Below, in pieces: positions 847 through 34,612 of a stretch of 34,612 bases of DNA; the stretch's first letter is position 1; each line of letters opens with the position of its first letter. Below the pieces are notes generated by a model. It did no database searches. It saw only the letters and a program-made list of their open reading frames with translations, and had not been told where the DNA came from. The position numbers and the translations under genes were made by a program. Source of the stretch: Desulfosporosinus sp. (GTDB taxonomy: Bacteria > Campylobacterota > Campylobacteria > Campylobacterales > Arcobacteraceae); NCBI GenBank assembly GCA_020719775.1, contig DYPS01000007.1:13920-48531 (forward strand), read 5' to 3'.

Positions 847-2408
847 ATGAAAAAAAGAAGAAATTTTACAATCGTAAATCATAAAGAACATAAAAAATTG
901 ACCTTAGAAAGGCCCAACGATAAAAAATAAAACATCGGTATTCCATTTCAGGAGAAAGAAAAGATAAAAATAAAAACATAAAATATTTAGATCAAACAAT
1001 CTAAAGACAATATCGACACGAGAACATCCAGCAAATTGCAAAATATACTGCAAAATGTTAGTTAAAACAAAAGAAGGACAAGTTTTTCATAAAGATTTGC
1101 AAATCCAAATCCAAAAAATATACATAGATAATAAACCAAACGCTCTAGCTTCTCCATTCATTTACTTAAATAAAGCACTTCCCTTCATTTAAAACAAATT
1201 AATAATCATTAAATATCATAGGCGGCAAGTAATTTATCAGAAAACAATCACGCTGATAGGTCCATAAGATAATTTACCATGTATTTGATCAGTAAAATGT
1301 ATCTCTTTCGATTAAGCCCATCTTCTTACGAAATCAGCCAAGAACAATTTCAGAATTTAGTCAAATCATTAGTTTTACTTTCACTTAGAGGCACAAACAA
1401 ATAATCCTCTATATTTGCAGATAGTGATGAGAATTAGCATTAAATCAAGAAAAAGTTGAGATTAATTGTTCAGTAGGAGAAAACAAAACAGTTAAAACTA
1501 AAAACAGCAGCAGTTATCTTTCAGTATAGTGCTTTAAATTTTAATGCGGATAAATAAACATAAAAAATGAAATTATGCAAACTAATAAGTGAGAAAGAAC
1601 AGCTAAACATTCGAATAAATAATCTAAAATAAGTTGAAGTATAAATAAATAAGAGAGTAAAAATTCTTTAAACCTAATTAACCAATAAAAAAAATATATT
1701 CTTTTAACTTTAGAAAAGTAATAATCTAAAAACTTAAAAATTGTGTTAGTTACAAAGCAAAGTCATCAAAATGTAACAATAATTATTGACCATTAAAGAA
1801 AGAGAACAATAAATTTACAGTTTCGTTCAAAAGCAAGAAACTAAAATTTTGCTGAAATAAATTAGTTAAGAATTCAAAGATATATAAGCATAAATTTACG
1901 ATTATGCAGCTTATTTACAGGCCAACTAAATGGCCACAAATCCTTTGTATTAGCCGCACCCTTTTTAATAAATGTAAAAACTTCTAAATTTATAACTGAA
2001 AGCTGTAAACTAGTCAATTATGCATAGCAATGAATTAAAAGTAGATCATAAAATAATGAGAGATATGATATCTAAAACAACGAATTTTTATCACAAAAAG
2101 GTAAGTAAAATACTATTTAGGATTTGTAAATGTCGAAGCTGATCTAATTTAAAACCAAATGTATTTGCTAATTCGTAAAAAAAATGAAAAAATGGCTAAA
2201 GAATTGGGAGTTCAAACAATAATTTTTAGCTAATCTTCGAAGTTAATTTGCATACGATTCAAAAGTATTATTTTAAAAATTCGATTAATTGACTTATAAA
2301 TAATTGTGCTTTGATTGTGGAAAGCAAATTCGTTAGTAAATAAAAGTTCTTGGTGTTGGTTTAACAAAAATATAAGAAAATTACAAAATGGGCAACTTTT
2401 TTTATTGA
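847..2408 (+). CDS. Coiled-coil protein, tandem paralogue copy 1
   Basis: Spliced product of 513 aa, not recognised. One frame with TAA/TAG as Gln runs from the ATG at 847; one 20-nt intron (2101-2120, phase 0) is needed to avoid a TGA just downstream. The N-terminal third is basic and Asn/Gln/Ser-rich. The middle (about residues 190-350) is Lys/Gln/Glu-rich and probably coiled coil. The C-terminal part is the best conserved relative to the downstream copy: a YLQxNQMAxNP motif, an HPF motif, KKMKKWLxNWE and the terminal block IQENYKMGNxFY. A CxxC pair (CFDCGKQ) lies near the end. The start is chosen because MKK(x)5-8NHxEHxKL at the N-terminus aligns with the second copy. A structural or cytoskeletal role would be a guess. 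Confidence 0.8.
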
Positions 2409-3055
2409 ATGATTCAATCATTAATTTATTTTAAGTACATAGACTGAACAACATTAATTAATTGTATTTAATTAAATAATCAATATTTATTCAGCAAGAG
2501 TGCAACTTTGCATATTTTTAATTCATTGCTTATTCTAGCAAAAATTGTAAACTCTAACGATGGAAGAATTTATATTTTGAACAAAAATAAAAATAATAAA
2601 CTCATCGTGAGAATGACTTTGCCTGTATTAGTGAAATCATTATGATAAATATCATTGATTAGTTTTAATCTTTAAAATAGTAACAAATATAATTCATAAA
2701 GACGAAACAAATATAGAAAAATATTGGCTAACACAATATTAAGCAAGATTTCGACAATTTTAAGCAGACAGGCTACAGTAATATTCTTGTCAGATCTGAA
2801 AAAAAACAATTGCAACAATCATAGTTCAAAGCACAGTTTTTTATTTTTTTGAACTTAGATAAATTACTTCTCCAATTAATAATAAACCTAATCGTTTTCA
2901 ATTTAAATTATGGGTAATTGCTCAGTTATATCAGCAAATGCTTTAATTTGCATTTATCGTCTAACTTCAGTTCGTAGTGACTATTTATATGATATTAATG
3001 CTTCAAATATTTATATTCATCCTGTCAATTCATATAATAAAAAAGGAAGAAATTT
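2409..3055. other. Spacer between the tandem paralogues
   Basis: 647 bp of AT-rich DNA between the two paralogues. A 50-codon open frame (2910-3059) ends in the start codon of the next gene and is probably fortuitous. I find no RNA gene, repeat or mobile element. Confidence 0.5.
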
Positions 3056-4647
3056 ATGAAGAAGGGTAACAATTTGATTATTCAAAATCATAACGAACAT
3101 AGAAAACTAGTCTTAGTGAGACTCAATTAAAAATAACCCAGTAAAAAGATAGAAGAATATTGCAAAAATACTTTAATATTGGGAAAAGTGCAAAATAAAT
3201 AGGACTAAAATAAAAAATAAACCATTGAAGAAAAAATATAAGAAAGAATGGGCAAAAATATAATCAAAAAAATCATTAGAAGAAAATCAAGTTTAGATTT
3301 GCGTATTTTAACCTAAAATAATTAAAAAAATAAAATAATATTTGCAAAGAATTCAATAAGAACTAACTCACTTCAAAAAGACACATAGCATTCAATGTCG
3401 CCAATCAATAACATGGCGAAATCCTTTATTGGTTCATTATTTGATTTTACAACATCACACAGCTGCAATGAGATCTAAGAATTGATAAAGGAGTTAATTA
3501 AGCAGATGATTCAGCAAATGTTTCTATATCAGTCAAGTTCGGTCACATACATTATTAAAAAGGAAAGGTTTCATTAAATTATTAAATATTTGATATAAAC
3601 CTCTTATTCATAAAAAAAATGGGAAGGCAAAAATAAAGCATAAAATAAAGATAGGATAATGGATGTGATGAGTAAAATTAGTAAATTTGGCAGTAATTGT
3701 CGATTTAAGGACAAATCTAATAGATTGGTGTATTAAGCGAAAACAGTGTCGATTCAATACAGTTCTCAGCAATTTAATAAATAAAAAATAAATAATACGA
3801 AATAGTACTAATAAATGTTAAAAAGCAAAGGATAAATATAAAAGTAAATAATGAAATTGACCTAAATACGAAACAGCATAAAGTCATAATACAATTATCT
3901 TCAATAAAGCAAAGTAGAAGAAGAACGAAAATCATGTGAGTTGTAACAAAGCAACAAAAGATAAACTTAAAAATACAATAAGCTAATAAAAGATATCAAT
4001 AAGTTAGAAATGGAAATGCAGACAATAACAAAAAAGAAATAGGAAATCATGAACTTTGTCTGCAAACAGTAGAGTAAACAAATATTAAAATAAGTCAGCA
4101 GATAGTATAAAAATATTTAATCTGATTTATTCTAATATGCGGTCTACCTACAATCCAATTAAATGGCCAACAACCCCAATTTCGAACTACATCCCTTCCT
4201 TTAAATGGAAAAACAATTGCTATAATAAATCAAAACCACCAATAAAAACATCATACAAAATTAATCTCTATCCTTACAAATCAAATAAAAATAGATGAGA
4301 GATATTATTATCAAAATTGTTGATTTTTACAAAAAAAAAGTATGACATATGTGATGTAGGATTCAGATATGATAACCCTTATGAATTTTAAAACTAAGTA
4401 CATACGATAATATGTCGAAAAAATGAAAAAATGGCTCAGTAACTGGGAATTGAAACAAGAATTTTTAAATAATTTAAGGAAATAATTTGCTGCAGATACA
4501 GTAATTATGAATGAACTTTTTTAGAAATTATCAGACATCCATTTGTGTGAAAATTGCAAATAAAGCAAAGATGAAGTTGCAGATTAATTGATTTCTCATT
4601 TTTCCAAAATTTAGGAAAATTACAAAATGGGAAATTCATTTTATTGA
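3056..4647 (+). CDS. Coiled-coil protein, tandem paralogue copy 2
   Basis: Spliced product of 523 aa, a diverged duplicate of the gene at 847-2408 in the same orientation. Homology is clear at the N-terminus (MKK, then NHNEHRKL), in the coiled-coil core (KYNKLIKDINKLEMEM, then IMNFVCKQQ) and above all in the C-terminus (YLQSNQMANNPNFELHPF, KKMKKWLSNWELKQEFL, IQENYKMGNSFY). A single 20-nt intron at 4340-4359 (phase 0) sits at the same protein position as in copy 1, just after a Lys run and before Asp. Unspliced, its second codon would be TGA. A CxxC pair (LCENCKQ) lies near the C-terminus, as in copy 1. The middle is rich in Lys, Gln, Ile and Asn. Function unknown. Confidence 0.8.
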
Positions 4648-5392
4648 TCAATATTATTATTATTTTGATAAAATCTGGAGTTGGATTTAACTTTCAAATA
4701 GAATTAGAAGAGTTGATCATTTTTTAATTGAGGCAAAAGAAAAAATGAAACATTTTATTAATGAAACCTGCTATCAATGAAACAAAACTTAATAATTTGA
4801 TTTATTAATTTTACTTATATTTTTGAAATAAAGATAATTGTAATATGTTTATATTGTTTTGTTTCAACAGCAAAAGAAGTTCAATTACTTTGGAAAAAGC
4901 AGAATTATTATCAAAAACTATTTCGTTTAAGACAGTCTTGAAATTTAATTCACCTAAACAATTTCAAAGAGAATATGGAGTGAGACATAAAATTAATGCA
5001 TAAAGTCATAAATCATATTAATAGGACAATTATATTTTTAGATTTAACAAAAATAGAAAACAAAATAAAAAGTACCAATCCATTTAAAATGGTTTAAATA
5101 TTTTAATATTCTATATTATTGATAAATTAAATTAAACTAACAGCGCTTATGTAAATAATTGTAAATTATTTTTAAAACAAACAAATATCTTGAAAATATA
5201 TATATACATCAATAAATTATTGCTTATGCTAAATATAGAAACCAAATAATTTAATTCATTTTTTAAGTAAAACTTAACAAAAAACTTCAATTAGTGCTTA
5301 GCTTGATTTTATTTTATATTTGACTTTGTTTTGGCGGTTACTATGATTGAATGTCGGAAAATAGATTTATTTTGCTCAAAATCAATGCATAA
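4648..5392. other. Spacer after the tandem paralogues
   Basis: AT-rich spacer whose only content of note is the doubtful frame at 4845-5306. No RNA gene or repeat recognised. Confidence 0.4.
4845..5306 (+). CDS. Doubtful open frame, possible relic
   Basis: A 153-codon frame starting at ATG 4845 and closing with TGA at 5304. The first 80 or so residues (for example ITLEKAELLSKTISFKTVLK, then QFQREYGVRHKINAQSHKS) have a protein-like composition. The second half is Ile/Leu/Asn/Lys-rich, as expected of translated AT-rich spacer. With only TGA as stop, a frame of this length in such DNA is not improbable by chance. It could be a small gene, the eroded end of one, or nothing. Confidence 0.2.
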
Positions 5393-5764
5393 TCATTTGG
5401 CCTTGGAACTAAGATATCTTTGTCTGAGCTCAACTGCCTCTTCACCTTTCCATCTTGTTAAAATTCCTGGATTTTTCACAAGCAACTCATCCTCTTCGAC
5501 TGTCCATTCAATTCTTTCATCTTTTTGAGAGTAAATTCTGTCCAAAGCTCGCACATCTCCTGAAACTCTATCCAACTTACGGATGAGAATGGGAAGAGTG
5601 GTGTTGTACTCTTTCGCGAGGACTGAAAGTAATTCTGCGAGCTCACCGAGTGACAGGTCTTTTGAAGGAAGGTTAAGCTTTGCAGCTGGAGCTGGAGCAC
5701 TTTGAAGGTTGACTCTGCTGTTGACGGCTTAGAGCAGACTTTTGACTTCTTTTGTTAATTCCAT
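5393..5764 (-). CDS. Small conserved-looking protein, unknown
   Basis: 123 aa, intronless, with one in-frame TAA read as Gln. GC content is visibly higher than the surroundings, and codon use is like the other real genes. The N-terminal half contains a short Ala/Pro stretch followed by a Leu-rich helix (SLGELAELLSVLAKEYN). The C-terminal half is charged, with WTVEEDELLVKNPG and a final Arg/Lys-rich helix. The start is the first Met of the frame. Product not recognised; the WxxEED run faintly recalls SANT/Myb helices, but the rest of that fold is not evident. It lies downstream of the EF-hand-like gene on the same strand. Confidence 0.7.
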
Positions 5765-5962
5765 TTGTATTGCGATATTAATAACAAGGCGCACGAAATT
5801 ATTCAAAAATATCACTCAATGAACATATATACATAACGCTTATGATATTCACAAAACAAGAACAAATCTCTTGATTACATTCTAAAAATTTGATTGGATA
5901 AAGGACAATTCAAAAATATAAGAAAAGCAAACAGTGAAGAAATCACAACATAGAGGTAAACT

Positions 5963-6331: not shown

Positions 6332-6376
6332 ATTGACCGTTGCAAAATGAATAAAAGAATGTTATATTATCATGTT

Positions 6377-7400
6377 TCAGACTTTGAAGCCTTAAGGACA
6401 CTCGAACAGCAGGTCAGGAAGTTGAGGACCCTTCTGATTGGGCTCGTAGAAACGGAACTCATGATGCATTAAAAATTAACGGAGGGGGTCAGCCAGGTCC
6501 GAATAGAAGTCAAAATTAGCGTGAGTCATTGTCTTGGGAGTTAAGACTTGGTGTTTGTTATAACATAGTTCTAAGTAATAAAATTAATACTAGCCAGTTC
6601 GAGAGAGTTTTAAAACGATATCACATCATCTTTTTGACCATGGATAAAGAACGTTGGACAACTTACTGAAAGAATATTCGTTTTATTGTCATAAGTTTAT
6701 TTAGCAAGAAAAGATCCTAAAAACCCCACAAATTAACGAGCAAGTGATTTGATACTCGCGAAGGGACTGATAAGTACTAAAGCTCCAGGATTTGCCTTTT
6801 GCATAAGTTCTAGAGCAACTCCAGTCCCTATAGATCTCCCCATTACAATAATATTTTCCTGTTTGAATCCCAATTTCTGCGCATAAGCATATACTGTTTG
6901 ACTATCTTCTTTAATGATTTCAGATGCAGTTTTCCCCTTATAAATACTATAACCTGAATACTCCATTGCTAAAACATTTACCTTTATAAGTATATATTTA
7001 CTTGATATAGATTTCTGAGAAGATCAAGAAGATTATGACTTAATTTGATATCTTCACCAGAAGCATGGAAATAAATAATTAAATATCGACTGCCTACCAT
7101 TGAATCTAAGAAGAGACAAGGAATGTGCTTATCGATTTATTCTTCATCTTCTCTTGAAGTTTATTCAGTCATTAGTTCTGACTCTAGATCAAGAGTGCCT
7201 TTTGCTTATAGAATAGCAGCATCAATAGTCAGATGTATGTCCGATGCGTTAGAAGCTTTATAACAATTGAGAAACGAAGCTAGTCCACTCTCTTATCTGA
7301 CTTTCTTTCGCATTTTGGGAATAAATACAACTTCACCCCATAAGTCAATAAAGCTATACTTGATTTTTGGAGGAGTAAAGAGAATAAAGTCTAAGTCCAT
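6377..7400 (-). CDS. ABHD17-like alpha/beta hydrolase
   Basis: Spliced product of 327 aa, a serine hydrolase of the ABHD17/FAM108 (Bem46-like) group. Members of that group remove palmitate from cysteines of membrane proteins. Visible elements in order: the strand and oxyanion region LIIYFHASGED (residues 108-117); YSGYSIYKGK, matching the family's YxGYGxSxG; the nucleophile elbow GRSIGTG with Ser183; the acid in FIHGQKDDVI (Asp251/252); and the catalytic His280 in MTHANFDFY. Two 20-nt introns (6982-7001, phase 0; 6571-6590, phase 1) must be removed to join these motifs. The family's Cys-rich palmitoylated N-terminus is not evident; instead there is about 100 aa beginning MDLDFILFTPPK. Substrate unknown. 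Confidence 0.88.
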
Positions 7401-7555
7401 CGGTTACCCAGTCCAATTTATATAAATATTATAACATAACATCATATTTCTTAACCCCAATCAAATATTCAAGATACAATATGCAAATACTGTCTAATTT
7501 TAACAAACTGGATAATGCCTATCAAATAGTAAAAATAAATGATATTAAAAATAGA

Positions 7556-9089: not shown

Positions 9090-9143
9090 TCGTCAATAAC
9101 CTAACAACTAACTCATTTTTAAAGAAAACAAACATTATCTACA

Positions 9144-11364: not shown

Positions 11365-12314
11365 ATGAGTGACACTAAGAAATATCTCCTAATTGCTGGT
11401 GGAGCAATCGCTGTCGGTAATTATCAGCTCACACAGCTTTAGGCGCACTTTTTGTCAAAAACGTTCTTGAAGAGAAAAACCTAAAAGTGCTAAGTAAATA
11501 GTAAGTGATTCGTGTGTTGCAAATCATTCGCAAAAACAAATATATCATTTACAAGCAAATCGCTACCTTCGCTGTCAACATCGCCCAACAAACACGCAAC
11601 AACATCAACCCACAAATGATTGAGCAGTTTATTCAAGGACCATAATCTCCACTTAAACTTAATGATGAAATCGAACGCATCACTGAAGAAGCATGCACTG
11701 TTGTTGGAACCACACGTATCAATGACAATATTCAGCATTTTAATATAACACCACACTTGAAAGACTTATCAAAGATTCAGATATATCAAAGTTGTTAGAA
11801 GAAGCCGAAAGAGATTATAGAGTCAGCTTAACTGGAAAACTACCAAACTACAAAGTTAATGTTCCTGAATCTTTAACTAAAGAAAAATTCTGCTTGATCC
11901 AAAATCAAATTACCAAAAGTAAACATAACATAACTTAGAAACTTATATTCAACAAGTCGCACTTTTCCGTAAACTCAAACAACACACCGAGATTGAGCTT
12001 CAGCAAAACCCTAGTCTGTTGAAAGATATTGGAAATCCAGAACAAGAACAAGAAGAAATCTTACTTGAAGAAGGTCTAGGCAATGAAACTGATCCAGCAT
12101 TTGCCGTTTACTAAGCTGCAAGTGTTAAATTCAGAAATTCACCAGATTTCAGAGCCAATATCACTCGGATTGAGCAAGGCTACCAAAAAAGTACATACAT
12201 TTTTATTTAGTTTTGATGAAATACGCTCCTAAAATTCAAAACAAGAGCATTACTGACCGCTAACTCAATGATATGGAAGACGAAATTATCTACTTTGATC
12301 CTCAACTAGTGTGA
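11365..12314 (+). CDS. N-terminally membrane-anchored unknown protein, four introns
   Basis: Spliced product of about 289 aa, not recognised. Residues 8-24 (LLIAGGAIAVALGALFV) form one hydrophobic segment that would anchor the protein in a membrane. The rest is soluble and mainly helical: KVLSKQQVIRVLQIIRKNKY, IERITEEACTVVGTTPF, LERLIKDSDISKLLEEAERD, an acidic Glu/Gln segment near residue 210 (EQEQEEILLEEG), and a final helix before IIYFDPQLV. Four 20-nt introns (11417-11436, 11716-11735, 11919-11938, 12191-12210), all phase 1, are required; each restores the frame and removal yields one ORF. This is the most intron-dense gene in the window. The annotated start is the first Met of the frame. 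Confidence 0.82.
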
Positions 12315-12544: not shown

Positions 12545-12662
12545 GCTGTCGTCCAAACTAAGCCGAAAGCACCGGATCCCATCCGAACTCCGAAGTTAAG
12601 CGACTTCAGGCACGGTTAGTACTAAGGTGGGGGACCGCTTGGGAAGTCCGTGTGACGACAGC
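12545..12662 (+). rRNA. 5S ribosomal RNA
   Basis: About 118 nt with clear 5S sequence: the GATCCCATCCGAACTCCGAA loop B/C region, AGTTAAGCG, and GGTTAGTACTAAGGTGGGGG with GACCGCTTGGGAA in the 3' half. The 5' end GCTGTCGTC pairs perfectly with 3' GACGACAGC to form helix I. It lies alone between two protein genes, with no second copy in the window. The internal control region for Pol III transcription should be in the middle of the gene (family knowledge). Confidence 0.96.
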
Positions 12663-12666
12663 CCTC

Positions 12667-13594: not shown

Positions 13595-16500
13595 TCAAAG
13601 TTTATTAGCTTGTATGAACTTCTTGCCCACCCTCAAAAAGTCATTCTCCTGGTGAGTGGTCTCCTGTATTATATTAAAGAAAGTATTCTCAAGTATAATC
13701 TCTCCAATCTCAAGGAATTAATCATTCAAAAATAATTGTTCATGATTGCTGTAATCTTTCTTTGATTAGTAATCTCCAGAAGCAGGAATCTACATTAATA
13801 AAAAAATACCTAAGAACCGACTCCAACTGCTGGATCTTAGTCCAACATGTCAAGGAGCGGAGTATCTTCTTTTTAAAGTTTGACTAAAAGATCTTCAATA
13901 TCACTGTCATTGAGAGTACTGCTGAAAATATTCTAGAAAATGTGATCTAGCAATGATTTTTTAGGATCCAACAAAGGCAATTTAGGAATATTTTGAACTG
14001 CTTTCAACTAAATAAAATAATTATTACTGACAAAGTTGATGTTTTTTTAATACGCAAAAAGAGAGATTCTTTTTTAGCAGTCATCAGCACCTCTTTTTGA
14101 GTAAGATCGTTATCCTCAGTTGAATATTTATTACTTGCCCAAGTTATATGACATGGAATCTCTCCCTCATAAAAACTGGGACTATTTCCTGCAACAAGTG
14201 TAATTTTTAATTATATAAATTTACCAGGTTATAGCAGACCTTGAAATGGTTCAATTACAAATTTATCTCCGCATGTGAGACCCTGTCTGTTGGAGTTGAG
14301 ACTGGATTGAGTTGGAAAATCATAATTGAGACTATGCTCTTTCGACATGTTGTATAGAATTATCATCCTGTACTTTATCTATTCAGCTTGCATAGCCTAA
14401 AAATCTATTTATTCAATTGAAAAGAAAACTTTTGAACCAATTTCACTCACAGTTGTACGCTGACCTGGGATTGGTTTGGAAAGAAGACTTTTACCATTGA
14501 CCCTTGGCTACTTTATTCCTTCTCCTTCAATTCTAAGAGATAAAGTTTGAATTTCTTTATTGAAATCAAACACATGAACCAACACAGTGAAATGATAAAT
14601 CTTTCTAATAAGTGGCTTATACAAACAGTAAAGATAATGATTTTAACCAGAAAGAAGAAAATGATTCGGATTCTATATTTTGAAAACATCTTCAAATTAA
14701 CCCTAATCATATTTTATCTAAGTTTTGTAGTTTACCTTTATAGAACCAACATTGTTAAGTTCAATGGGGAAACGCAAAGGCTATATAAGACCAATTGGAG
14801 TTTCAGGTAGCAAGTAATTTATTTTTTTAACTGTCAGCAGTCCTTCATTGGGTCCAAGTGTTGTTCCCTTTAGATTGAAGACTAATGATTTACCATTTTG
14901 AATTTGGAACACTACTTTTAGGAAATGGATTTAATTACTGCTGCCACTAAGTTTTACGTTTTATAAAGAAACTGGACTGTATATTAATTCAATGTCTTTG
15001 ACTTCATTGGGCTGCAATCGACCCACTTTTGGTCTGATCTGGAAAATGTTATTTTAAAGAATTGCTCGTTCATAAGCCTACTCTTAAGTTGGTTCTCCAG
15101 GATCTGCCCATAGCTCTTATTCCACTTTGTTATCTGAAGGAAATTTAAATGCATAATCGAGTGGAGTTCCACCATAATTTTTAACAGTAATTAATACTTT
15201 TCTGGGCTTGGCTTTGTTTTTAGTTGACACATATCCAAGATTCCAATCATAATGCTTAAGATTATTTTCAAGAGTCTTCGTTTATGAAAATGTCAATGTC
15301 TCAACAGCCAAATATTTTTTTTCATTATTATCCAACTTACAACCAAGTTCATAATTAATTTTTGATATTTGAAAATTCTACCAAAGAGCAGCCACACTCA
15401 ACGTATCATTACGAATATCTATTATTTACATTAAAGGATAGTTACCCTCAGCCAACACTCGCATTTCACATTTCATTGCTGGCTCATTTCCTCTTAATTT
15501 AAAGGTAGTATTTTTTGGTATTTTTTATCGAGCAGCCACCACCAATTTTAAATCATATTTATAAACTTAGTTTGGATTAAAAAATATTCCCACAGTCAAT
15601 TCAGAGTTGCCTGGTAATGTACCCTCTTTGAAATCGAGATTAAAAACTGAGCTAATTTGTGAGTCACTTGGAGAATTATACCCTTCTTCAAAACGATTAT
15701 TTCTAAAATGCAAATCAACAAAAAACGCACAATTTGAAGTATTTTTCAAAGTAACACTCATCTTTTTCTGCTCAGTTATTTTTACAGTTTTAAAATCAAT
15801 CTCATCATGAGAAATTTTTATACTACCATCAGAACCCTACCCATTCACCTACAACATAAACACTTTTTTGGATTGTTGAGATATCCCACTACTGTTAAAA
15901 TTATCAGCTGTTCCAGAACCAGGATTATGATAGCCGATTGATAAATTTTGAGATATAATATCTTCAAGGGCCTCAATGGGCACTTGGATTTTGTATTGTC
16001 TTTTCAATTGAGGTACAAAGAAAGCACTTAGAGTATATGACTAGTTTGCCTATAGCTACTTTTCAAAAGGTTAGAAACTCAACTATTCTTGATATTTTTA
16101 AGGCACGCAAATTCGATAAGTAACTTTAGTTTTAGATACATTTTATATAGTGAAATCTTTCTTTGTGCAGACTCCAGTGAAAGTAGGAGCGAAGAATAAT
16201 CGGCCTTCATTCTATAGCCTCAACTATGGTTCGGTGCAAATACCAACTAATGATAATTTAGCTGCTGAACCTGGAAGATCATTTAGAGTGATGGATATTG
16301 TTGATTTATAATGTTTATATTATTTTGGACTGAACTATAAAGCAACAATACAGAAACCTTTTGATTCAATTAGACCAATACGTGGAAATGCTTTGAACAC
16401 TTTTTGAGGATCAAGGCCAAATTTAAAGTAAATAGGAGTATCTGATTGGTTGACCAATTCGACACTGTCATAGGCTGAATGATTTTTGAGACAAGGTTTA

Positions 16501-21400: not shown

Positions 21401-22036
21401 TTAAATACGTACATTCCTTTTCAAAGAGTTAAATTTTGCATAAAATTGTATAGAACCTTCCCAGCTGAAGTATAATCAGCTATTCATCGACTATGATTTA
21501 GATAAGCAAAAATCACAACCATCAAGAGAAGCACTGACAATCAAAATATAATAAAATGCAATACAGTTTATGCTTTAAGGCGATCATTGTAACAGTAGAG
21601 GACCCATTCTAGATTCAAAAAGTAAATTATATATAATTTAGATATTTCAACTGCGAAGTAAGATCATTCTGGAAGAGGAACCATAGTTTTTGGATCTAAA
21701 AAGGTCGAACAGGAAGTTCCAGTTGTTGTCAAAGATATAAGTGTGAAAGAACCACGAGTCCAACCTTCAAATCTGCAGCGCCCACTAACTCCAGAACAAC
21801 TTCAGCAGCCTCATCTTCCAATGTTCCCACAAAGATAACCTCAAGATATTAATATTCAAATAAATCAGCAACCTCTTCAAAATGAGCCCCAATCCCTATC
21901 TCTAACTGGATAAGCATTATTGAAAAGTATAGAGGAAAAGGTCCAAACATTAAGACCATTGACAGCGGGATAGAAGCAACTCTATTTTACTCGCAAATTA
22001 TAAATGATCCGCAGAATAAAAGCTGCTAAAATTTGA
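18477..22036 (+). CDS. GH38 alpha-mannosidase with Gln/Pro-rich C-terminal extension
   Basis: Spliced product of 1179 aa. An N-terminal signal peptide (LLLFLLVVAIQAC) indicates lysosomal or secreted alpha-mannosidase. Catalytic elements: zinc motif HPHLDAFW (residues 47-54, family HxHxDxxW), the nucleophile Asp near residue 191 in ADSFGHSQTS, GLYWTGYFTT, and QHHDGISGTSKYVV carrying another zinc ligand. The beta-sandwich follows, with GRQYD and LRPLQIRTFLF, where GH38 proteins normally end. The frame then continues for about 190 aa, crossing a 20-nt intron (21622-21641, phase 1) into a Gln/Pro-rich segment (PEQLQQPHLPMFPQ) and a basic end (RKLQMIRRIKAAKI). No TGA separates the enzyme from this tail. 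Alternatively, the tail is a separate short gene starting near 21571 on an overlapping transcript. Confidence 0.93.
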
Positions 22037-22761: not shown

Positions 22762-24628
22762 TCAATTTATGGGCTGATCTTCGTAAAAATCGTTGAACTT
22801 TTTTCCCAACACTTTTTCAATATAATACTTCGAAGTGTTCGCTAATTGTGGTTTGAAAGAACATTCTTATAACTATTTTTATTCTAACTTTGATCGTTAT
22901 CTTTGAAGTCTACATTATTTTTGCTGCATTTCCTTCAATCCTTGCTCATATAGTTGTTCATAAACTGGAACATTGGAAGAATGTATTCTACTCAGGGCTA
23001 TTTGCTTTGATTTTTTATTGATTTCAGGAATAAAATTACTTCTCTATTATCTTTTTGGCTTTTCACTCAAAAATACACCTTTACTTGAAGGATCTGCTTC
23101 ACTCAAAAGTATTAACAAAGCCTTACGAAATTAAGTAAAATCTAATACTGCTGAAAGTTCATCAATTTATTAGAAAATAGGTTTTAGAAAAATTAACTCA
23201 TTTTTAGAAAGGAGCTCAATCGAAATGTGATCGGGAGAAATAAAACCATCCTCATCGCTGTCTAATATTTTAAAGACATCATTTACTCTTTTTTAAACTA
23301 AATTTTAGTAAAATGCATGAGAATTTTGACTGATAGTAACAGGCTGAAATTATTAAATTGACAGAAGTGGAGTTTGGCTCTTTTTTAATTTTTAATTGTA
23401 AAGGTGGTCCCAAAGACCAGATGACTCGCTATCACTGCGTATCGTACTTCTTTCTTTTGGAGGACGACCAACTTTAGGCTTGAAAGAATGTTGTGAGTCA
23501 CTGATTCCTTATTTCATCTGATTCTTACGAATCAGTGATTTTTGTAATCTTTGCTAAAATGTTTCAGTAATACACTAAGTGCTTTTCCGATTAATTTGTG
23601 GTTGAAATAACTTTTATTGATTTAAAATTGATTGAGAATTTATTTTATTTTGTTTAGTTTGAGCATGACGATAAAGAGTGACAAAATGATCATATTCATC
23701 TTGATCAGTGTGCTTGTTTTGAGCAATTAACTGACTTCTAAATAAAGAATGAAATTACACTCGATTAATTTGCGGTTTGAAAGTGCACTATTTTATTTGT
23801 GAAGCTTCTTAGCTTAATTTTTGCTGGTTAATGGCCAATTTTTTATTTTATTTTTATTTAGATTTTTCAGTCATATCTCCATTTTCTCTTCTAAATTACT
23901 ATATAATCAAATAAATACAACTATTTTCGAACTGACAGTGTTTATCTTGGGCTTAAATGTTAGTTAACTCTGCTAGAACTATTCTAGTTGATGTTTTCGC
24001 TTTTATCTCTATTCTTCAAGCATTTTTGTTTTAATCATGGCTCGAGCATATAATTAATTGCCAATGTTAGGGTTTCCCTTTTTAGGTTTTGACTATTTTT
24101 ATATTTACTTTGCTCCAGATTTTCCTTTCAAATTACTTGCTGATGGCTTTGTCTTTGTTGGTGAATTATTTATAGTTTTTCGTTGTTCTACTTTAGTTTG
24201 CTTTTAAGTAGATCGATTTGGTTTAGGATCAACTGCTGCCATCTTATTTGTTGCGATGTAGTTATTTTTTTGGATGGATCGATTGTCATTTGCCACATCT
24301 TTACGTAATTTCCCTGAGTTATTAGCATTTCTTTTTGAAAATAAGCGTTGCTATTATTTTTCTTGAGCTTCTCTTATTTTACTTTAAACTATTTCTTTCG
24401 CCAATTCATTCAACCGATGCTTTCTACAAAAAGCTGCAGCAAGTGAAGAAGGTTCATCAAAATGACTTAATAATATACAACTTACTTAATCTCAAGAAAC
24501 TAATTTTTCCCTTCAGATAGTTCAATTTCCAGATATACGGTGTACCCCATTGCTTCTTCACTGAACTCATTTGGTGGTGCAACTACCAACCCAATTTGAC
24601 TGAAGATATCGTTAGAATTCATCAGCAT
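22762..24628 (-). CDS. EF-hand protein with PFU-like N-terminus and FKPxIN repeats
   Basis: Spliced product of 608 aa. Residues of about 25-80 (VYLEIELSEGKNQFLEI, then SLAAAFCRKHRL) match a ubiquitin-like motif with FCxKHxL that recurs at the N-terminus of many protist cytoskeletal proteins. A basic Lys/Gln/Asn region follows. A short motif is repeated at least five times: FKPKIN, FKPQIN, FQPQIN, FKPKVG and FKPQLA. One canonical EF-hand near residue 440 (VFKILDSDEDGFISPDHI) has the DxDxDGxI ligands; its partner hand is not obvious. Two 20-nt introns: 24466-24485 (phase 2) and 23899-23918 (phase 0). The first Met (24628) has a second Met two codons later. Likely calcium-responsive and cytoskeletal or ciliary, by inference only. 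Confidence 0.83.
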
Positions 24629-24857: not shown

Positions 24858-26355
24858 TCACGAAATATTGACGTTACCATTATTGATTCCGTTGAATTCT
24901 CCAACCACGTGAGTGTCAGCATATGGAAGAATTGGCTCTTTTAAGTTGGGATTTTTCTGTTGGGCCATTCTCAACAATGTTTTCCATTTTTAGTCCATTT
25001 TGACCTTCTCTTTTCTAATCAACTTAGGATCTTGAAGAGATTGGAAAAATTTATTTGATTCTCTTTTTTCAAGAGCTTTTTAGAAAGCTTGAGGATCAAT
25101 CTCTTTCAAAATGGCTTTAAGAGCATTTAGAGATTATTGAAGAACTTTGTGCCAATGAGTTTCAGCCATATGGACAATGACAGGGACCAAAAGTGGGAAT
25201 GTATAGCTCTTATATGTCTTGAGAATATTTAAGAAGTAATCATTCTCAAAGAAGCACATTGCTCTATCGGCAACTTGAAGATGAAGCCCAGAAATGCATT
25301 TAACAAGTCTTTTGAAAACTTTTGGAATATATGGCTCAAGTTTTTGAACTTCACAGGTTTCAAGAACTTCAATTAATTCACTAATGAACATTACTTCTTT
25401 TGGAGAGTTAGCAAATGGCCAATATTTGATGAGACCGTCAAGAAGGAAGAGTCCAAGAGATGGATCTTTTGCCAAGAAAAGCATAGAACAACGCATCAAA
25501 TGCTAATGGAATAAATGACAAGTTTGCACTTTATGAAGTGGAATAATCACATTCTTAAAGAAAATGATGTGTTATTCTCTCAAAGGAACAGCAAAACCAG
25601 AAATGATGCTTGCCAAAATATCGAGCAATTCAGAAGCCCCATTGAACTTGAATGTTTAGTGAATGAGACTATAGAAACAGTCATTGATAGCTTTACGAAT
25701 CATCTTACGACGAGGGACAAGTTTTGCATAAAGTCTATGCAAAATATTTTTAAGGTATTCACGTTCTCTTGGTTCTTCAGAATCAAACAACTCTAAAAAT
25801 TCTTGAATAAATGAAGGGGTAATGTGAACCTTAAGAGCCTTTACATCTGCTCCATCATTGACAATCAACTGTAAGAAAAATTCGTAAACAGGCTGCAAGT
25901 GTGGCCAAGCAGGATCTGAAAGTGCTTCTTCCTAAGTTACCAATGTCATACCTCTTCCATACTCATACCTTCTCCCGGAAGTCCTTGTTTTTTAAGAATT
26001 GGTAGAGGACGGAAAATATTTTTCTCAATCATGTTGATGACCAAATCGAGATGGGGAATGATGACAGTACTCATACAGTTTTGGTCATTGAGATAGTCAT
26101 TGAATTCCTGTAAGTAAGTTTGTCTGTCATTTTTCTCTTTCACTTGTTTTGTTTCATCATTGAAGTCAAGTGGATTCGAACATACCTGAAGTTTGCGTAA
26201 GAATTGATCCCTTTGTTATGATTGAAATACTTGAACTCTCTTGGGAGATGTTTGGGGTCTGGGCCTTTGTTGCTTGTTCCAGTGCTCCCTGGAGTCACTT
26301 TAGCGCCGGGAGTTGGCTTGGTCGTCATTCCAGGTTTTGGCTGATTGGGCTTCAT
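24858..26355 (-). CDS. PP2A regulatory subunit B' (B56/PR61)
   Basis: Spliced product of 485 aa. B56 subunits direct protein phosphatase 2A to its substrates. After a Pro/Thr/Lys-rich leader the HEAT-like B56 domain starts with FLRKLQVCSNPLDFND (family FVQKLRQCCVLFDF). It continues through WPHLQPVYEFFLQLIV, HITPSFIQEFLELFDSEEPR, EREYLKNILHRLYAKL, LDILASIISGFAVPLRE, KYWPFANSPKEVMFISELIE and ETHWHKVLQ, all collinear with animal and yeast B56. Two 20-nt introns: 26211-26230 (phase 2) and 25932-25951 (phase 0); without them the domain breaks into three frames. Length is typical of the core subunit. Confidence 0.96.
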
Positions 26356-28657: not shown

Positions 28658-29797
28658 TCAATTAGTTTTCTTTGATTTCAGTTTTTTCTGTTTATTGGCT
28701 AACTTTTTATTTTAAATTCTCTTTTACTTTTTAATCATTTTGTTTGTTTTTTATATTTTGCCCTCATCTTTTTCAGCCCCCTTTTACTAAACAACTTCCT
28801 TTTTTGTCATAGCTGCAGCAATAGCTTATAAACTGCCGACCTCAATGCAAATAATTCTTTGCTTAGTTTGTTGCGAAGCAATAGGCTGTAAACCTTCAAG
28901 AGGATAATCCTGACTGATCGAATCAACACTTTTCAGAAATTATAGAATATCCCATTGAGAAATATCTCCATTTGAATCAGCAGTAAATAAGTAGTCAATT
29001 TCATCAAGAGAGGCCCACTTCATATCTTTGATTCTTGTTTCATGGGCCTTGAAATGTATACAATGAGTGAAATTGCCATGACTCCATATCTTTATCTCCC
29101 CTTTTTATGCTGAATTATTTATAAATTACTGGCGACAATAAGATAATCTCTGAAAATAAGCCCGCATTGTATCTTTTAAGTCAGTTCAAGTTTGGCCAGT
29201 TAAGTGTTGTTTTATGTGCTCATTTGTCTAATTGATCGATCACCCAACAAAAACAAATACTAGAAACTTTCAACCAGTAATAAATGCTCAAGCTCTAAAT
29301 GAAAACATTCTTACCAAAATCGAATTTGTAATGATACAAACTTTTCAATGTTTGAGTATTCCAAAAAATCATATCTTTACCACCAATACTCACCATTAAC
29401 AATCCCTTCGAATCAATTCGAATATCTCTTACACCCTTTTTGTGCTATCTTAAATCTTTTCTTGCAACCCAATTTTCACGATCCCAAAATCGAATTGTCC
29501 CATTCTACAAACCAACAGCACTAAGTCTATCAGTCAAGTTGCAAATACAGTTAATAACACCCAAACTTTCTTTAGATTATCTAAGTTCCTATCCACTTGT
29601 AGCACTAACCGCTCTCAATTCCTGATCATATCCTCCAACTAATAACTCATCGCCACTAATACGCATAGTTCTAATAGAGTTCTAAGTAAGATTTGAGTTA
29701 CTTATGATATTTGCTTTTGAGTGCGAAGAGAAAGTTACTAATGAGTTGCATCTAAAAGCAATATAGAACCGGAATATGTTCCTGCGTAAACTCTCAT
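28658..29797 (-). CDS. PAK1IP1/Mak11-like WD40 protein
   Basis: Spliced product of 359 aa. PAK1IP1/Mak11 helps assemble the 60S ribosomal subunit in the nucleolus. The start MRVYAGTYSGSILLLD matches the family start (MELVAGxYxxxLxGF). Later blades: TIRFWDRENWVARKDLRQHK, VRDIRIDSKGLLMVSIGGKD, MIFWNTQTL, EIKIWSHGNFTHCIHFKAHE and TRIKDMKWA, the last close to human CEFKAHENRVKDM. The Lys-rich tail (KKQKRIQNKKLANKQKKLKS) also matches the nucleolar tail of the family. Three 20-nt introns: 29682-29701 (phase 0), 29295-29314 (phase 1) and 29110-29129 (phase 1). Upstream in-frame sequence reading about 60 more residues is not family-like and is left out. Confidence 0.88.
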
Positions 29798-29934
29798 GGT
29801 AAAGTTGAAAGTATAATGAAGTTTTATTATATAATTCAAGTTTGAATGCAGGAATAAGGACAACTGATGGTCAGCAGAAATAGAGCTGCCTGCCTCAAGT
29901 CCCGTTAGACAAATATTGCAGCCATACTCAGCAC

Positions 29935-32394
29935 ATGCAAAATACCTAGTAAATTGGAAGAACTTAAAGTTATGCACTGCCCTCTTCTAACTTCTCTCGA
30001 AGTAACTCTATTTTCACAAAGGGTATCGATATTTGCAGCAATATTGTCTTACTTAATTTATCTTCAAACGCCCTAACAAATTTAATCTCTCTGCAGCATC
30101 TTCCCTTACTTAAACAGCTTGAAGTCAAAAGCAACCGTATATAATCGTTAAAAGGATTGTAAAAATTAACTCTTCTAGAAAGACTTGATGGTTCTCATAA
30201 TAAACTGACTTCATTATTGGAAGGACTTGGCGAAAATAAAGTTAAATTAGCTGTTCTTGTTTTATGTGGAAATTAATTAAAAGATCTTTCGGAAATAAAA
30301 ATATTGAAAGGACTGAGGGGGCTGAAAGAAATATGTTTTAATAAACAAAAAGCAAGTAATCCATTTTGCGAAGATCAAAATTAATATCAAAAAACATTAA
30401 AATTAACTTTTTCATTCCTAAAAGGTTCAATATAAAAAATTGATGATTGGAGCAAATAAGATACTCAAAAACTGCTAAGCCAACAATAAAAATAGATTTA
30501 ATAAAATTCATAATTGAGATAAAGTAATTCTAGATTTGCAGCAACTCACCAACAAAATATATTTCCTCCTTAAATTGATAATAAACGTGCCTTCATAAAT
30601 ACTGCTTCCAATCAATATATGAATAATTATGGACAAAATTAAAATTTAAGGTCAACCAACAATAAACTGCTAATGATGACTCAAAGACAGTCAGCACTTT
30701 AAGAAGTTTTAGCCATGAAAGAAGATATGGTTGAATAACTCAAAGGAAAAAATTCACAGCTCTAACTGACGAATGCCCAATTTTACAAAGATTCTCTTAG
30801 AAAATAAGTTGACTATGAGAGAGTGCAAGGTCAAATATCAGAATTGTCAAGATGTATTGATCAAAAAGATCAAAAGATTAATGATCTTCACAGAAGAATC
30901 GAATAGTTACTTAAGGTGAATGCGAATGTCAATACTATGGCTGATGGGAAATCTACTGAAATGTAAAAATTACGGAGATAAAATGGATAGTTTAGAATAT
31001 AAAATGCTCAGCTGAAGGCTCTTAATAAAGATCAAGATGGAAGATTGAGATAATTACAAAATAAAGCACTGAGCAATATCGAATAAAAATCAGAGAGAAT
31101 AGAAGATTTAAGAAGAAAGAACGAATAACTTATGAGAGAAAATTATGATTGTCAAAAACAGCAAGAATAATATAAAGAGAGGGTTAGAGAAATGACTCAG
31201 CTGCTTAGATAATGGGAGTATAAGTATTAGCAAAAAGTTAAAGAAATGGAGACTTATCATAACAGCTAACGAGCTGATTTGATCAGATAATTTGAGGGTA
31301 GAGAGGAGGAGACAAGTAAGAAACAGGAAGATGCTATCAGACAAATTTTTAATGAAAGTGAAGAGAGAGTTAGAGGATTGGAAGATTAGTATGGAGAAGC
31401 ACTTGAAGGAGCCTTATAAAAATATAAGCAATTGAAAAGAGCTTATGATTAAAAAAGCAATAATTAAAGTTAACTGAAGATGCTTCTCAAAACAGTGATG
31501 AACAAAAATACAGAGCAATAACATACTATTGGATAATGCCAGCAGGTGATTTTGTCAAATCGAAAAAGATTAAGCGAACTGAGCCAATAGAATGAACAAC
31601 TGTCCAGAAACAATTCATAACTTAGAGGTAAAACTCAAGGATAAATGAGGCAACTATAGGGAGAACTAGCTCGAATGAGTTTTGAAAAGAACAAATTATA
31701 AAAGGAAATAAAAGAACTACAAGCAAGCAACGATTATCTGCAGGGACATTTTGATAAATTAAATTATAGATAAAAATAGAGTCAATAATTGGAGTAAAAA
31801 GTAGAGGGATTACAAACTGCATTGGATGCCAAAAACATTATGTTGGATGATAAAAATTAAACTATTTAAAATTTGAAAAATTAACTTTAATCTTTACAAA
31901 AAGAGGGATAAGGCAAAATTGATTCGGGATAGTTTTAAAAACTACAACAAAAATATCGAAAAACTAAAGAAAAAATTAAAGAGGTCGAAGAACAACTCAT
32001 TGTAACAGCCTAGGAGAATAAGTAGTTAATTGACAAACTTGATATTTACAACAAAATGGAACAGTAATTCATCGATTTGAGAGATATACTGGCCAGACAA
32101 GAGGCATAATTAAATGAAAAAAAATAAAACATAGATGAATTAGTGTAATCTTTGAAAAAATTAAAGGAACATACCGTCATGCTCAAAGAAGAAACAGATA
32201 ATTTGAGACGAGACAAAAATAGACTGCTGACAGCTTTAGATTAAAAGGAAGCAAGATGGAGTCGACAATTTTAGGAAAAATAAATGGAATTTCAGCGAAA
32301 ATCAAGCAGCATGCAAGAATAGATGGCTAAGTATAAAGGCATCGCCATGCAACTACGGGAATTAACGAATCTTACAAGCAAACTTTCCCTGTGA
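29935..32394 (+). CDS. Leucine-rich repeat and coiled-coil protein
   Basis: 819 aa, intronless. Residues of about 30-150 are SDS22-type leucine-rich repeats (NIVLLNLSSNALTNLISLQH, LPLLKQLEVKSNRIQSLKGL, LTLLERLDGSHNKLTSL and VLVLCGNQLKDL). An Asn/Gln-rich linker follows, then about 550 residues of nearly continuous coiled coil (for example QISELSRCIDQKDQKINDLH). LRR plus long coiled coil is the layout of centrosomal and ciliary proteins such as LRRCC1 or CEP-type proteins; a specific orthologue cannot be named. The start is the first Met before the repeats. The C-terminus ends NLTSKLSL. It diverges from the WD40 gene with 137 bp between starts. Confidence 0.88.
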
Positions 32395-32598
32395 GTAAAT
32401 TAATTTAATTTGATTATAAGTTCAATCAATATATATTTGTTTTTCATCATAAACCTTCAACAATAACTAGTTACCAATATACATTGTTTCCCTCATAGAT
32501 TGTACAGCTTCAATATAATTTTTATTCAGTAATTTATAGCTGAATCAATTTGAATAAATAATCATATCTCTTTGATTATATTTAAAAGTTATCAACTA

Positions 32599-33015
32599 AT
32601 GTCCACAGCAGGCAGCGATCTCTCCATTCCCAGTAATGCCGTTCCTTTCAAAGTGTATTACCGTCACAACAGCACCCTCATTGAATTAAAATTCTAAGAC
32701 AGTCGTTTGAGAGTATAAGAAGTAATTTCAAGCTGCGTCGATCAACTCTCAGATCAATACATGATAAAACTAAACAACAACTTTCTTCACTACGCACTAT
32801 ACCCTGCAGGAAAAGGAGGAATGAAAGCAACAGACGCACTTTAAATATCCCACGGACAAAGAATAAAAGGAGTTGGAGTACGTAGATTCTACTTATAATA
32901 TCTGAACCTTTCAAAAGAGAGTATTTCAACACAGATCAATCTCTAGAAAAAATATGGCTTTTAAAAAAAGATCAAAACATAACATATGGGATGTTGCTCA
33001 ATTTTTAGCAAATGA
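32599..33015 (+). CDS. Small unknown protein, possibly beta-grasp fold
   Basis: 138 aa, intronless. VPFKVYYRHNSTLIELKFQD followed by SRLRVQEVISSCVDQL resembles the first strands and helix of a ubiquitin-like fold, and HGQRIKGVGVRRFYLQYL would supply later strands. The C-terminus is basic and ends CCSIFSK. No family recognised. It lies 204 bp after the LRR/coiled-coil gene and 62 bp before the LITAF-like gene, all on the plus strand. Confidence 0.65.
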
Positions 33016-33077
33016 CATCCCCACAATGATTTTTGACAACTACAGTTTCAATCATAATTCTATTATAATTTGAACCA

Positions 33078-33566
33078 ATGGAAAATTAAGCAAATATTCC
33101 CTATCAGCAACTACGCAATGAGCAACAACCTCCCAACTTTCCACCCACAAATAACCCATACAACAACTATCAGCAAGCAAATCAAAACAATAATCAACAA
33201 GTTCCCAACTATGGAGGAAACCCCAATCCTAACTACAACAATGTACAGCAACCATACATGCCACCACAACAACCTGTCTACAACCCTCAACCACAGATGA
33301 ATCCTTATAACAATGTGGGCTATATTCCAGCCCCTGCGAATTATATTGCTGGGAGTGGACTTATTTGTCCTTTTTGTCGTCGAGAGACAGATAGTTTTCC
33401 TAAAAAATCACCAGGAGGAGTAACTTGGATTTGGTGTTTTGCACTGTTTCTTTTCACAGGAGTATGCTGCTGCATTCCATTTTGTGTTGACAGCTGTCAA
33501 GACACTGAGTTAGTTTGTCTAACCTGCCAGCAAGTAAAAGCTAGGTCTTAAGCCAATTGTTGTTGA
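33078..33566 (+). CDS. LITAF-domain protein
   Basis: 162 aa, intronless. The N-terminal 95 residues are Gln/Asn/Pro/Tyr-rich (NPYNNYQQANQNNNQQVPNY), as in animal LITAF/SIMPLE proteins, which carry PxY motifs there. The LITAF domain follows: CPFCRRET, a central hydrophobic patch WIWCFALFLFTGVCCCIPFC, VDSCQDTELVC and LTCQQV. The paired CxxC zinc knuckles and the membrane-inserting segment are both present. Animal homologues act on late endosomes and lysosomes as monotopic membrane proteins. Some in-frame Gln are TAA. Start at the first Met of the frame. Confidence 0.92.
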
Positions 33567-33928
33567 ATGATTGATCATAGGATGATGATAATAAAATGTA
33601 TGTTTAGTAGTTTTGTTGTGAATGTATTTTGTTCTGGAATAATATATCTTAACAAATTGAGGATGGGCAATTATGATGCATGAAGGATAGATAATTGCTA
33701 AAAAATAGTTATTTCTCTTATGTAACAGAAGTTGATAAAATTAATTTAGCAAATACAGCTTAGATGATCAACTTATATTAAATCATTTTAATTTGAATAT
33801 TAAAATAATAAATCCATAATTTATAATCCAAATATCCAACAATAGTTTTATCCATTTTATTGATTTAACTTATAAAAACATACCAAACAATAATTGTATT
33901 ATCCCAAACCACAACACTTCAATTCACC
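33567..33928. other. Intergenic spacer
   Basis: 362 bp of AT-rich DNA between the LITAF-like gene and the partial LRR gene, both plus strand. Nothing recognisable beyond what a 3' end and a promoter would need. Confidence 0.5.
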
Positions 33929-34612
33929 ATGTAAAACACCCATTATTATTAACAACAAGCTATTACAAATATTTCCAAGCTAATTAAACACAGATAAATC
34001 AGATTCACAATAGACATAAACCACCTCTCCGACTCCTGCCTGCCCTCCATCGGCTACATCTACTTCAACCAAACTATAATTCTACACTTCATAAAATAAA
34101 CAAAACACTTCCAACATGTCCATAAATTAATTATAAGTCAATTTTATTATATTTAGATAGCGTCAACTTAAAGGATAGCCACGTCAAACTGATATCCAAA
34201 GCACAACTAAAATTAAAATAATTATATATGTCATATAATCAATTGACAAACCAATGCTTTCTTTTTTTAAATAAAATGAATTTGACATAAATTGTTGCGC
34301 TTTCCATCGAAGGAAATCCTATATCAACTGTCGATAATATATACTTACTCAAAATCAAAAAAATAGAACATATCAATCTTGCACATTGTCAGCTCAACAA
34401 CTCAGTTTAAAAATTGAAAAAGTGCACATGGCCCAATTTGAAGATACTCAATTTAACCGGCAACAAAATAACCAATAAAGGAATTACCGGCTTAGCCAAA
34501 TGCAACTGGCCCAATTTGTTCGAATTAGACATCAGATATAATTTAATAACAAGTGATGGAATCCAAGGGTTGGCTAAGCATCAGTGGAAGAATCTCAATG
34601 AATTGGATATGA
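33929..34612 (+). CDS. Leucine-rich repeat protein, truncated by window end
   Basis: N-terminal part only; the frame is still open at the last base. About 220 residues are visible. Repeat units such as LKQLYMSYNQLTNQC, IEHINLAHCQLNN, LKILNLTGNKITNKGITGLA and LFELDIRYNLITSDGIQGLA show the LxxLxLxxNxI pattern, with TWPNL/NWPNL joining the last units. One probable 20-nt intron at 34137-34156 (phase 1) begins GTC instead of the GTA seen in all others; without it the repeats before and after do not share a frame. Start is the first Met in the frame. Function unknown. Confidence 0.75.

Follow-up and report, generated by a model that had tools for sequence, protein, structure and literature searches.

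Nearly uniform predicted introns of 20 nucleotides in ciliate DNA from an assembly filed as prokaryotic

A stretch of 34,612 nucleotides (nt), comprising bases 13920-48531 of contig 214 (C214) in an assembly of 2.85 Mb (G000) that is filed as a prokaryote, and referred to here in its entirety as the window, raises the question of why the introns in its genes should nearly all have one length. A sequence-only reading of the window had listed 19 introns of exactly 20 nt, had found no other length to be needed anywhere, and had suggested from this single fixed length that the spliceosome measures distance. The window and 54 further stretches of the same assembly (854,111 bases altogether) were examined with a gene decoder that was run without that list of introns. 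The DNA of the window is that of a ciliate, and the observation of 20-nt introns is largely real, although "exactly 20" is not true. The elements are probably GU-AG spliceosomal introns of a peritrich-like ciliate, predicted to have been reduced to the shortest length that its spliceosome can mechanically handle, with a nearly rigid geometry of 15 + 5 nt.

Lengths and internal arrangement of the predicted introns

When 663 kb of the ciliate DNA was decoded with a flat prior on lengths from 10 to 60 nt and with nothing required but GT..AG, 183 introns were predicted, of which 77 were of 20 nt, none of 19 nt, none of 21 nt and 5 of 22 nt, with at most 7 at any other length. Twelve control dinucleotide pairs gave 2 to 17 at length 20; the control AT..AC, which gave 17 and also had its maximum there, may represent the same introns with their boundaries shifted by one or more bases. 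On held-out contigs, outside the training set, 21 of 41 predicted introns were of 20 nt, and all 21 had adenosine at position 15 (A15), compared to 0 or 1 predictions from each of five controls. With GTA preferred and nothing else stipulated beyond GT/AG, all stretches together yielded 277 introns: 201 of 20 nt, 9 of 22 nt, 4 of 23 nt, 1 of 21 nt, none of 19 nt, and the remainder scattered over many lengths with 1 to 6 at each. The re-estimated model predicted 325 introns (300 of 20 nt, 12 of 22 nt, 2 of 21 nt, 2 of 23 nt and 9 of other lengths).

A frame-free scan counted donor-acceptor motif pairs at each spacing in 360 gene spans, requiring an A at a fixed distance from the end. It found 247 pairs at spacing 20, 24 at 21, 10 at 22 and 8 at 19, over a background of 10.6 +- 3.3. 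After correction, this corresponds to 296-300 introns of 20 nt and 17-28 of 21 nt; the next highest spacing below 32 nt was 28 nt, with 17. Introns of 20 nt thus make up 300 of the 325 decoded (92%), or approximately 86-89% if the estimated hidden introns of 21 nt are added. They interrupt codons in all three phases (126, 109 and 63 of 298 in phases 0, 1 and 2). The proposal of a single fixed length holds to the extent that lengths cluster sharply at 20 nt whatever the phase, and fails in its exclusiveness, since introns of 21 and 22 nt occur. In the 360 decoded genes, phase 2 is rarer than phases 0 and 1, and introns lean towards the 5' part of genes, with 61, 49 and 32 of 298 in the first, second and third tenths.

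Frame restoration cannot find introns of 21 nt. In spliced coding sequence, the spaced motif was found at spacing 21 on 21 occasions in sense and 11 in antisense, while each of the 18 remaining spacings between 12 and 30 had 1 to 16 in sense; with a stricter motif threshold there were 13 in sense and 4 in antisense, as against 0 to 6 at other spacings. Twenty-five candidate 21-nt introns that had previously been read as seven codons were collected in this way. One of them lies in the gene of the ATP synthase beta subunit (L037:5774-5794), where it reads as seven residues within a conserved stretch; without these residues the protein aligns gaplessly through the junction with a solved ATP synthase beta chain. 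The frame-free scan, in which the A must stand at an unchanged distance from the end, does not show the 22-nt class (12 of 325 decoded introns). Gapless alignments run through the junctions of 22-nt introns in a centrin (residue 39.3) and in ribosomal protein eL24 (residue 43.7). A16 was present in 9 of 9 introns of this class in the GTA-preferred decode; in the re-estimated set A16 was present in 11 of 12 and A17 in 8 of 12, and since both are frequent the branch position of this class is uncertain. Some introns of 21 and 22 nt share a gene with introns of 20 nt: in one gene, which encodes a kinase (L017:13976-15801), the introns measure 20, 20, 22 and 21 nt and fall at residues 192.7, 257.3, 320.3 and 350, all four within the kinase match (residues 161-415; profile positions 4-263 of 263; 203.7 bits). 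Prediction from reading frames misses introns with lengths divisible by three in a code that reads two stop codons as sense, so that "fixed" lengths need a frame-free check.

The 20-nt introns are also constrained in their internal sequence. GTA begins 76 of the 77 predicted by the flat-prior decode, in which only GT and AG were required. With the interior unconstrained, A15 was present in 200 of 201, T13 in 161 and T or C at position 16 in 181; position 18 was T, C or A in all 201, and G in only 1 of 298 in the larger set. A15 therefore stands in the context T-N-A-Y, 5 nt from the end of the intron. Branch-point consensus sequences of U2-type introns, near the 3' end, are yUnAy-like, and the context of A15 fits this pattern. 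When branch position and tail length were varied as a grid, the strongest cell was (15,5), with 246 in sense and 9 in antisense; the runners-up, (12,8) with 71 and (11,9) with 57, both total 20, and (16,5) had 22 in sense and 16 in antisense. The 20 columns of the intron sum to 14.8 bits, and the interior is richer in A+T (80%) than coding sequence (67%).

Intron length is kept while sequence drifts. Ten pairs of introns occupy the same site and phase in paralogues with 38-99% protein identity; eight of these are 20/20 pairs, in which 8 to 17 of the 20 letters are equal, and two are 20/22 pairs. Both of the latter come from three centrin-like genes that are 98.7-99.4% identical (L038, L040:9941-10441 and L053, on three contigs), the same-site introns of which have diverged, with lengths of 20, 22 and 20 nt.

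Explanations of the fixed geometry

The spectrum, the near-invariant A15 in its T-N-A-Y context and the sharp lower edge can be read from the sequence itself, and a fixed spliceosomal reach is the simplest reading of a geometry so constant. A15 would be the branch point, and the intron would end 5 nt later, a 15-nt loop and a 5-nt tail being formed nearly every time that splicing presumably occurs. The constancy of A15 and of the tail would imply that the 5' and 3' reach are both rigid, or nearly so: the loop could stretch by 1 nt (the 21-nt introns, mostly with A16), a total stretch of 2 nt would be rare (the 22-nt introns), and shrinking would not be possible. The cause would be steric, with 5' splice-site pairing and the branch-point duplex end to end and no room to lose. 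A floor of spliceable length such as this would account for final spectra with none at 19 nt, nearly all at 20 nt, and few at 21 and 22 nt.

A further proposal, to which we would give somewhat less than even chances, is that intron length is itself a splice signal, defined by a rigid spliceosome through two distances, fixed at 15 and 5 nt, which arose independently of those in the ciliate Stentor (10 and 5 nt). If this is true, Stentor and the peritrich-like ciliate would share a 3' module of 5 nt and differ only in the 5' reach, as two natural instruments that measure different lengths. The suggestion that the spliceosome measures distance thus finds agreement in the constant A15 and the 5-nt tail, and none in the exons, if length is taken as a sufficient signal. 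Length and motif together are not sufficient to define an intron, because exons contain such 20-mers about as often as similar motifs with another spacing; the A+T-rich interior may add the rest of the signal.

Several results weigh against the proposed mechanism or qualify the data on which it stands. The depletion of look-alikes from exons that is expected if length is a signal was not clearly seen: spliced coding sequence contains 98 20-mers of the form GTA..A..HAG, while the other spacings (14-29) have 89-133; with a stricter motif the count was 14, as against 11-30 at other spacings, and a scored scan found 6 in sense and 6 in antisense. The motif and lengths used by the decoder were re-estimated from its own calls, and only the flat-prior and held-out decodes are free of such circularity. 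The settings mattered, in that the first, stricter penalties gave no introns in the window and were then lowered. Single 19-nt calls of early rounds disappeared in later rounds. Odd lengths (13, 28, 29 and 53-77 nt), probably decoder noise, are found in nine of the 325 decoded introns; they are what is left of early odd lengths, such as 16 nt for the intron at 2101 and 47-80 nt at several sites, which mostly included an intron of 20 or 22 nt at one end and mostly collapsed to it after re-estimation. The excess at 21 nt is only moderate, both frame-free (24 in sense, 9 in antisense) and in the coding scan (21 and 11). Searches of the assembly for the U2 and U6 small nuclear RNAs returned no match, as did their controls, only part of the ciliate genome being present.

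The circularity of the re-estimated model, together with the blindness of frame-based decoding to multiples of three, could be taken to mean that these are ordinary tiny introns with a spread like that of Paramecium, and that the peak at 20 nt is an artefact of gene prediction. This is very unlikely, given that the peak persists when the prior is flat, on contigs held out from training and in the frame-free scan, where spacings of 23-31 nt reached at most 17 (at 28 nt), the background being 10.6 +- 3.3, and the spacing of 25 nt had 9 in sense and 10 in antisense; a spread of 20-33 nt with a mode at 25 nt was not seen. It is also unlikely, if a little less so, that length is set by surveillance, 20 nt being kept as a non-multiple of three so that retention would bring in a TGA and decay, as the sequence-only reading had suggested. 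Retained 20-nt introns do meet a TGA inside the gene in 290 of 298 cases, but at a median distance of 106.5 nt, which is no sooner than at random sites of the same phase (101 nt), and introns of 19 or 22 nt would reach one sooner (65 and 68 nt). In-frame TGA codons within introns exceed those of shuffled interiors (28 versus 16.5 +- 3.6); this result in the opposite direction is discounted, as the shuffle breaks the T13-N-A15 motif. An estimated 17-28 introns of 21 nt, as against 12 of 22 nt, are unlike the outcome of selection against multiples of three, and surveillance does not predict a constant A15 and tail.

Two explanations in terms of the origin of the 20-mers are both highly improbable. 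Were they introner-like copies of one recently spread 20-nt element, their length would be shared by descent; they do have length and ends in common, and there is a slight excess of fairly similar pairs over column-shuffled introns (188 versus 152 +- 19 at 9 of 11 interior letters). Yet all 298 are distinct in sequence, full matches of the 11 interior letters are no commoner than column shuffling produces (1 versus 1.0), and paralogues of 35-45% identity (5 pairs) have introns at the same site that have diverged in sequence. The 20-mers might instead be unremoved internal eliminated sequences, pseudogene frameshifts or assembly errors. Ciliates excise short DNA, internal eliminated sequences have TA at both ends, and many of the 20-mers read GTA...TAG, with TA near both ends; but T is found at position 18 in only 182 of 298, so that TA at both ends cannot be a requirement, telomeres cap many of the contigs, which are hence macronuclear, and GT/AG ends with a T-N-A-Y context suit the spliceosome. 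On this reading, conserved genes such as that of PP2A B56 would be broken. A fixed reach of the spliceosome is preferred to all four of these explanations.

Introns of the window and source of the DNA

All 19 of the listed 20-mers are present with GT...AG on one strand (Table 1), and all have A15, which is found in 39% of all 3485 GT-N16-AG 20-mers in the stretches that were then analysed. The final decoder recovered 15 of the 19 and added one. Frame, homology or a paralogue supports 18, the exception being the 20-mer at 34137; this is also the only one of 20 sites (the 19 and the added one) at which the spliced frame did not score better locally than the unspliced. The assertion that removal restores homologous sequence is borne out in several genes and not at 34137, where the junction lies beyond the Pfam matches. 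In the alpha/beta-hydrolase, the Hydrolase_4 match (residues 128-247) covers the junction of the intron at 6982 (residue 153) and the FSH1 match (residues 197-293) that of the intron at 6571 (residue 283); splicing raised the FSH1 score from 24.9 to 30.3 bits with no gain for Hydrolase_4 (33.1 to 32.7). The spliced B56 protein matches Pfam B56 over residues 38-451 with 439.5 bits, compared to 352.1 or 355.8 for the 3' exon alone, and its alignment with PP2A gamma chains starts at residue 39 and crosses the junctions at 41.7 and 128. A likely intron of 21 nt at 23738 would contradict, within the window itself, the statement that no other length was needed.

Table 1. Predicted introns of the window
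Feature	Position	Strand	Evidence
20-nt intron, A15	2101..2120	+	position matches that of 4340 in paralogue; absent from final decode; third frame scores still higher
20-nt intron, A15	4340..4359	+	decoder, paralogue, frame scores
20-nt intron, A15, alpha/beta-hydrolase gene	6571..6590	-	joins frames; FSH1 match across junction; frame scores; absent from final decode
20-nt intron, A15, alpha/beta-hydrolase gene	6982..7001	-	joins frames; Hydrolase_4 match across junction; frame scores; absent from final decode
20-nt intron, A15	11417..11436	+	decoder, frame scores
20-nt intron, A15	11716..11735	+	decoder, frame scores
20-nt intron, A15	11919..11938	+	decoder, frame scores
20-nt intron, A15	12191..12210	+	decoder, frame scores
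20-nt intron, A15, 3' part of CFAP65 gene	13790..13809	-	decoder, frame scores
20-nt intron, A15, 3' part of CFAP65 gene	14008..14027	-	decoder, frame scores
20-nt intron, A15, 3' part of GH38 alpha-mannosidase gene	21622..21641	+	decoder, frame scores
Likely 21-nt intron, A16, 5-nt tail, readable as 7 codons; missed by sequence-only reading	23738..23758	-	motif scan of coding sequence; genome-wide excess of 21-mers
20-nt intron, A15	23899..23918	-	decoder, frame scores
20-nt intron, A15	24466..24485	-	decoder, frame scores
20-nt intron, A15, PP2A B56 gene	25932..25951	-	spliced protein matches Pfam B56; alignment crosses junction
20-nt intron, A15, PP2A B56 gene	26211..26230	-	decoder, frame scores; alignment starts just before junction
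20-nt intron, A15, WD40 gene	29110..29129	-	decoder, frame scores; WD40 profile, residues 32-259
20-nt intron, A15, WD40 gene	29295..29314	-	decoder, frame scores, WD40 profile match
20-nt intron, A15, WD40 gene	29682..29701	-	decoder, frame scores; WDR55 profile, residues 3-144
20-nt intron, A15, leucine-rich-repeat (LRR) gene; missed by sequence-only reading	30002..30021	+	decoder and frame scores only; no Pfam match across junction
Listed 20-mer, not supported as intron	34137..34156	+	GTC start; not decoded; spliced frame worse downstream; Pfam LRR matches end short of junction

The introns at 2101 and 4340 occupy a position common to both members of a tandem gene pair (772-2408 and 3056-4646), the proteins of which are 35% identical over 526 columns and both end in ENYKMGN(F/S)FY. 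The window also contains a 5S rRNA gene (12545-12663, + strand; 108.6 bits).

TAA and TAG, which had been taken as sense codons, are indeed sense and encode glutamate, with UGA as the stop codon (NCBI table 30), in the window and the 54 stretches (L010-L087). The codons facing them were counted in 196 pairs of paralogues with TAA/TAG masked. TAA stood opposite Glu codons in 114 of 363 cells, compared to 27 for Lys and 11 for CAA, with GAA in 89; TAG stood opposite Glu in 29, Lys in 15 and Gln in 10 of 127 cells. This decides for Glu, with more certainty in the case of TAA than in that of TAG. In B56, Glu of the human-type PP2A 56 kDa gamma chain stands opposite two TAA codons (residues 220 and 248) and Pro opposite one TAG (residue 271). 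Pfam scores lean to Glu, not uniformly: with Glu in place of Gln they rose for most CFAP65 domains, for B56 (352.1 to 355.8) and for GH38 (98.8 to 102.5), but fell for two CFAP65 domains (139.9 to 137.6 and 56.7 to 53.5) and for asparagine synthase (206.1 to 205.2). The glutamine code (table 6) used at first was dropped on the paralogue test; the intron calls are the same under both codes because TGA is the only stop in each. A code with UAA as Lys and UAG as Glu, known in another oligohymenophorean (PMC10553269), scored lower on B56 (350.8 versus 355.8) and higher on some CFAP65 domains (142.0 versus 139.0 and 140.0 versus 137.6), and the paralogue test favours Glu. The highest B56 score (357.2) was obtained with UAA as Glu and UAG as Gln. 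UAA and UAG as Glu is the peritrich code, said to have a single origin (PMC10553269), and the source organism is therefore most likely a peritrich, of the group of Vorticella.

Many contigs of the assembly are macronuclear chromosomes of the ciliate, with CCCCAA/TTGGGG telomere repeats at their ends (at both ends in L019, L021, L050, L051 and L087). They contain long frames with internal TAA and TAG that close at TGA, and encode such proteins as CFAP65, PP2A B56, WD40 and leucine-rich-repeat proteins. One contig (L027, C224) has a tandem repeat of ACTAAATC at its start and an ordinary telomere repeat at its end. The bacterial part of the assembly groups with Arcobacteraceae: its FtsZ is 84-88% identical to those of three metagenome-assembled genomes (MAGs) titled Arcobacter or Arcobacteraceae, and 81-87% identical to two loci of a MAG titled Helicobacter pylori, a title that is probably a mislabel. 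The assembly is rated 100% complete and 0.32% contaminated, yet it includes at least about 0.85 Mb of ciliate DNA, to which the quality score is blind. Neither a ciliate nor a bacterial small-subunit rRNA gene was found in a search of the assembly DNA. Searches with B56 against the genome_contigs and viral_contigs sets found no relative, and a search with CFAP65 against viral_contigs found no match. Kinase searches of two overlapping sets, one of 59 relatives (with E up to 1e-20) and one of 396 further genomes from the phylum (with E up to 1e-45), had no match with internal stop codons outside G000 among those listed. The presence of ciliate contigs inside an assembly filed as bacterial matters to any user of that genome.

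Comparison with other tiny introns

Tiny introns of nearly a single length are already known in other eukaryotes. In Stentor coeruleus, 8173 of 8806 introns (92.81%) are of 15 nt and 7.19% are of 16 nt, with the branch A at position 10 of 15 and a tail of 5 nt (PMC9505925). The peritrich-like ciliate resembles Stentor in having one dominant length, a GUA start, a branch A (predicted, in the ciliate of the window) at a fixed position, a 5-nt tail and a bias towards the 5' part of genes. It differs in that the length is 20 nt and not 15 and the adenosine is A15 and not A10, giving a loop that is 5 nt longer, and in that TAA and TAG encode Glu, whereas Stentor has the standard code; the heterotrich type of intron, of 15 or 16 nt with its branch A at 10 or 11, is thus not what was found. 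Mikrocytos mackini, with 217 of 224 introns of 16 nt and 7 of 17 nt (PMC10245619), also has a near-single length, but is a reduced rhizarian parasite with shorter introns. The introns of chlorarachniophyte nucleomorphs, mostly of 18-23 nt (35.8% at 20 nt in Lotharella vacuolata), are in the same size class (PMC4035089, PMC4494063), but these are relict algal nuclei and the spread is broader, 19 nt accounting for 70.3% and 49.3% in two species.

Among ciliates, Paramecium has introns of 20-33 nt (PMC5014332, PMC2633312), with the same lower end but with a spread around a mode of 25 nt in place of nearly all at 20 nt. The intron mode of Tetrahymena is 56 nt, and Paramecium and Tetrahymena belong to the class that also holds the peritrichs. 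In Loxodes magnus, the mean of 19.3 nt is similar, the mode is 17 nt with a tail, and multiples of three are depleted (PMC11441545); telomeres were not identified there, whereas the peritrich-like ciliate has TTGGGG. A literature search, of which the coverage excluded preprints and most subscription papers, found no title or abstract opening that announced intron lengths of peritrichs. What is new is therefore not near-uniform tiny introns as such, which are known from Stentor, from Mikrocytos and more loosely from nucleomorphs, but a 20-nt geometry in another lineage. A different length with the same 5-nt tail makes the cause of minimum intron size testable by comparison, and raises the question of which parts of the spliceosome changed the reach from 10 to 15 nt.

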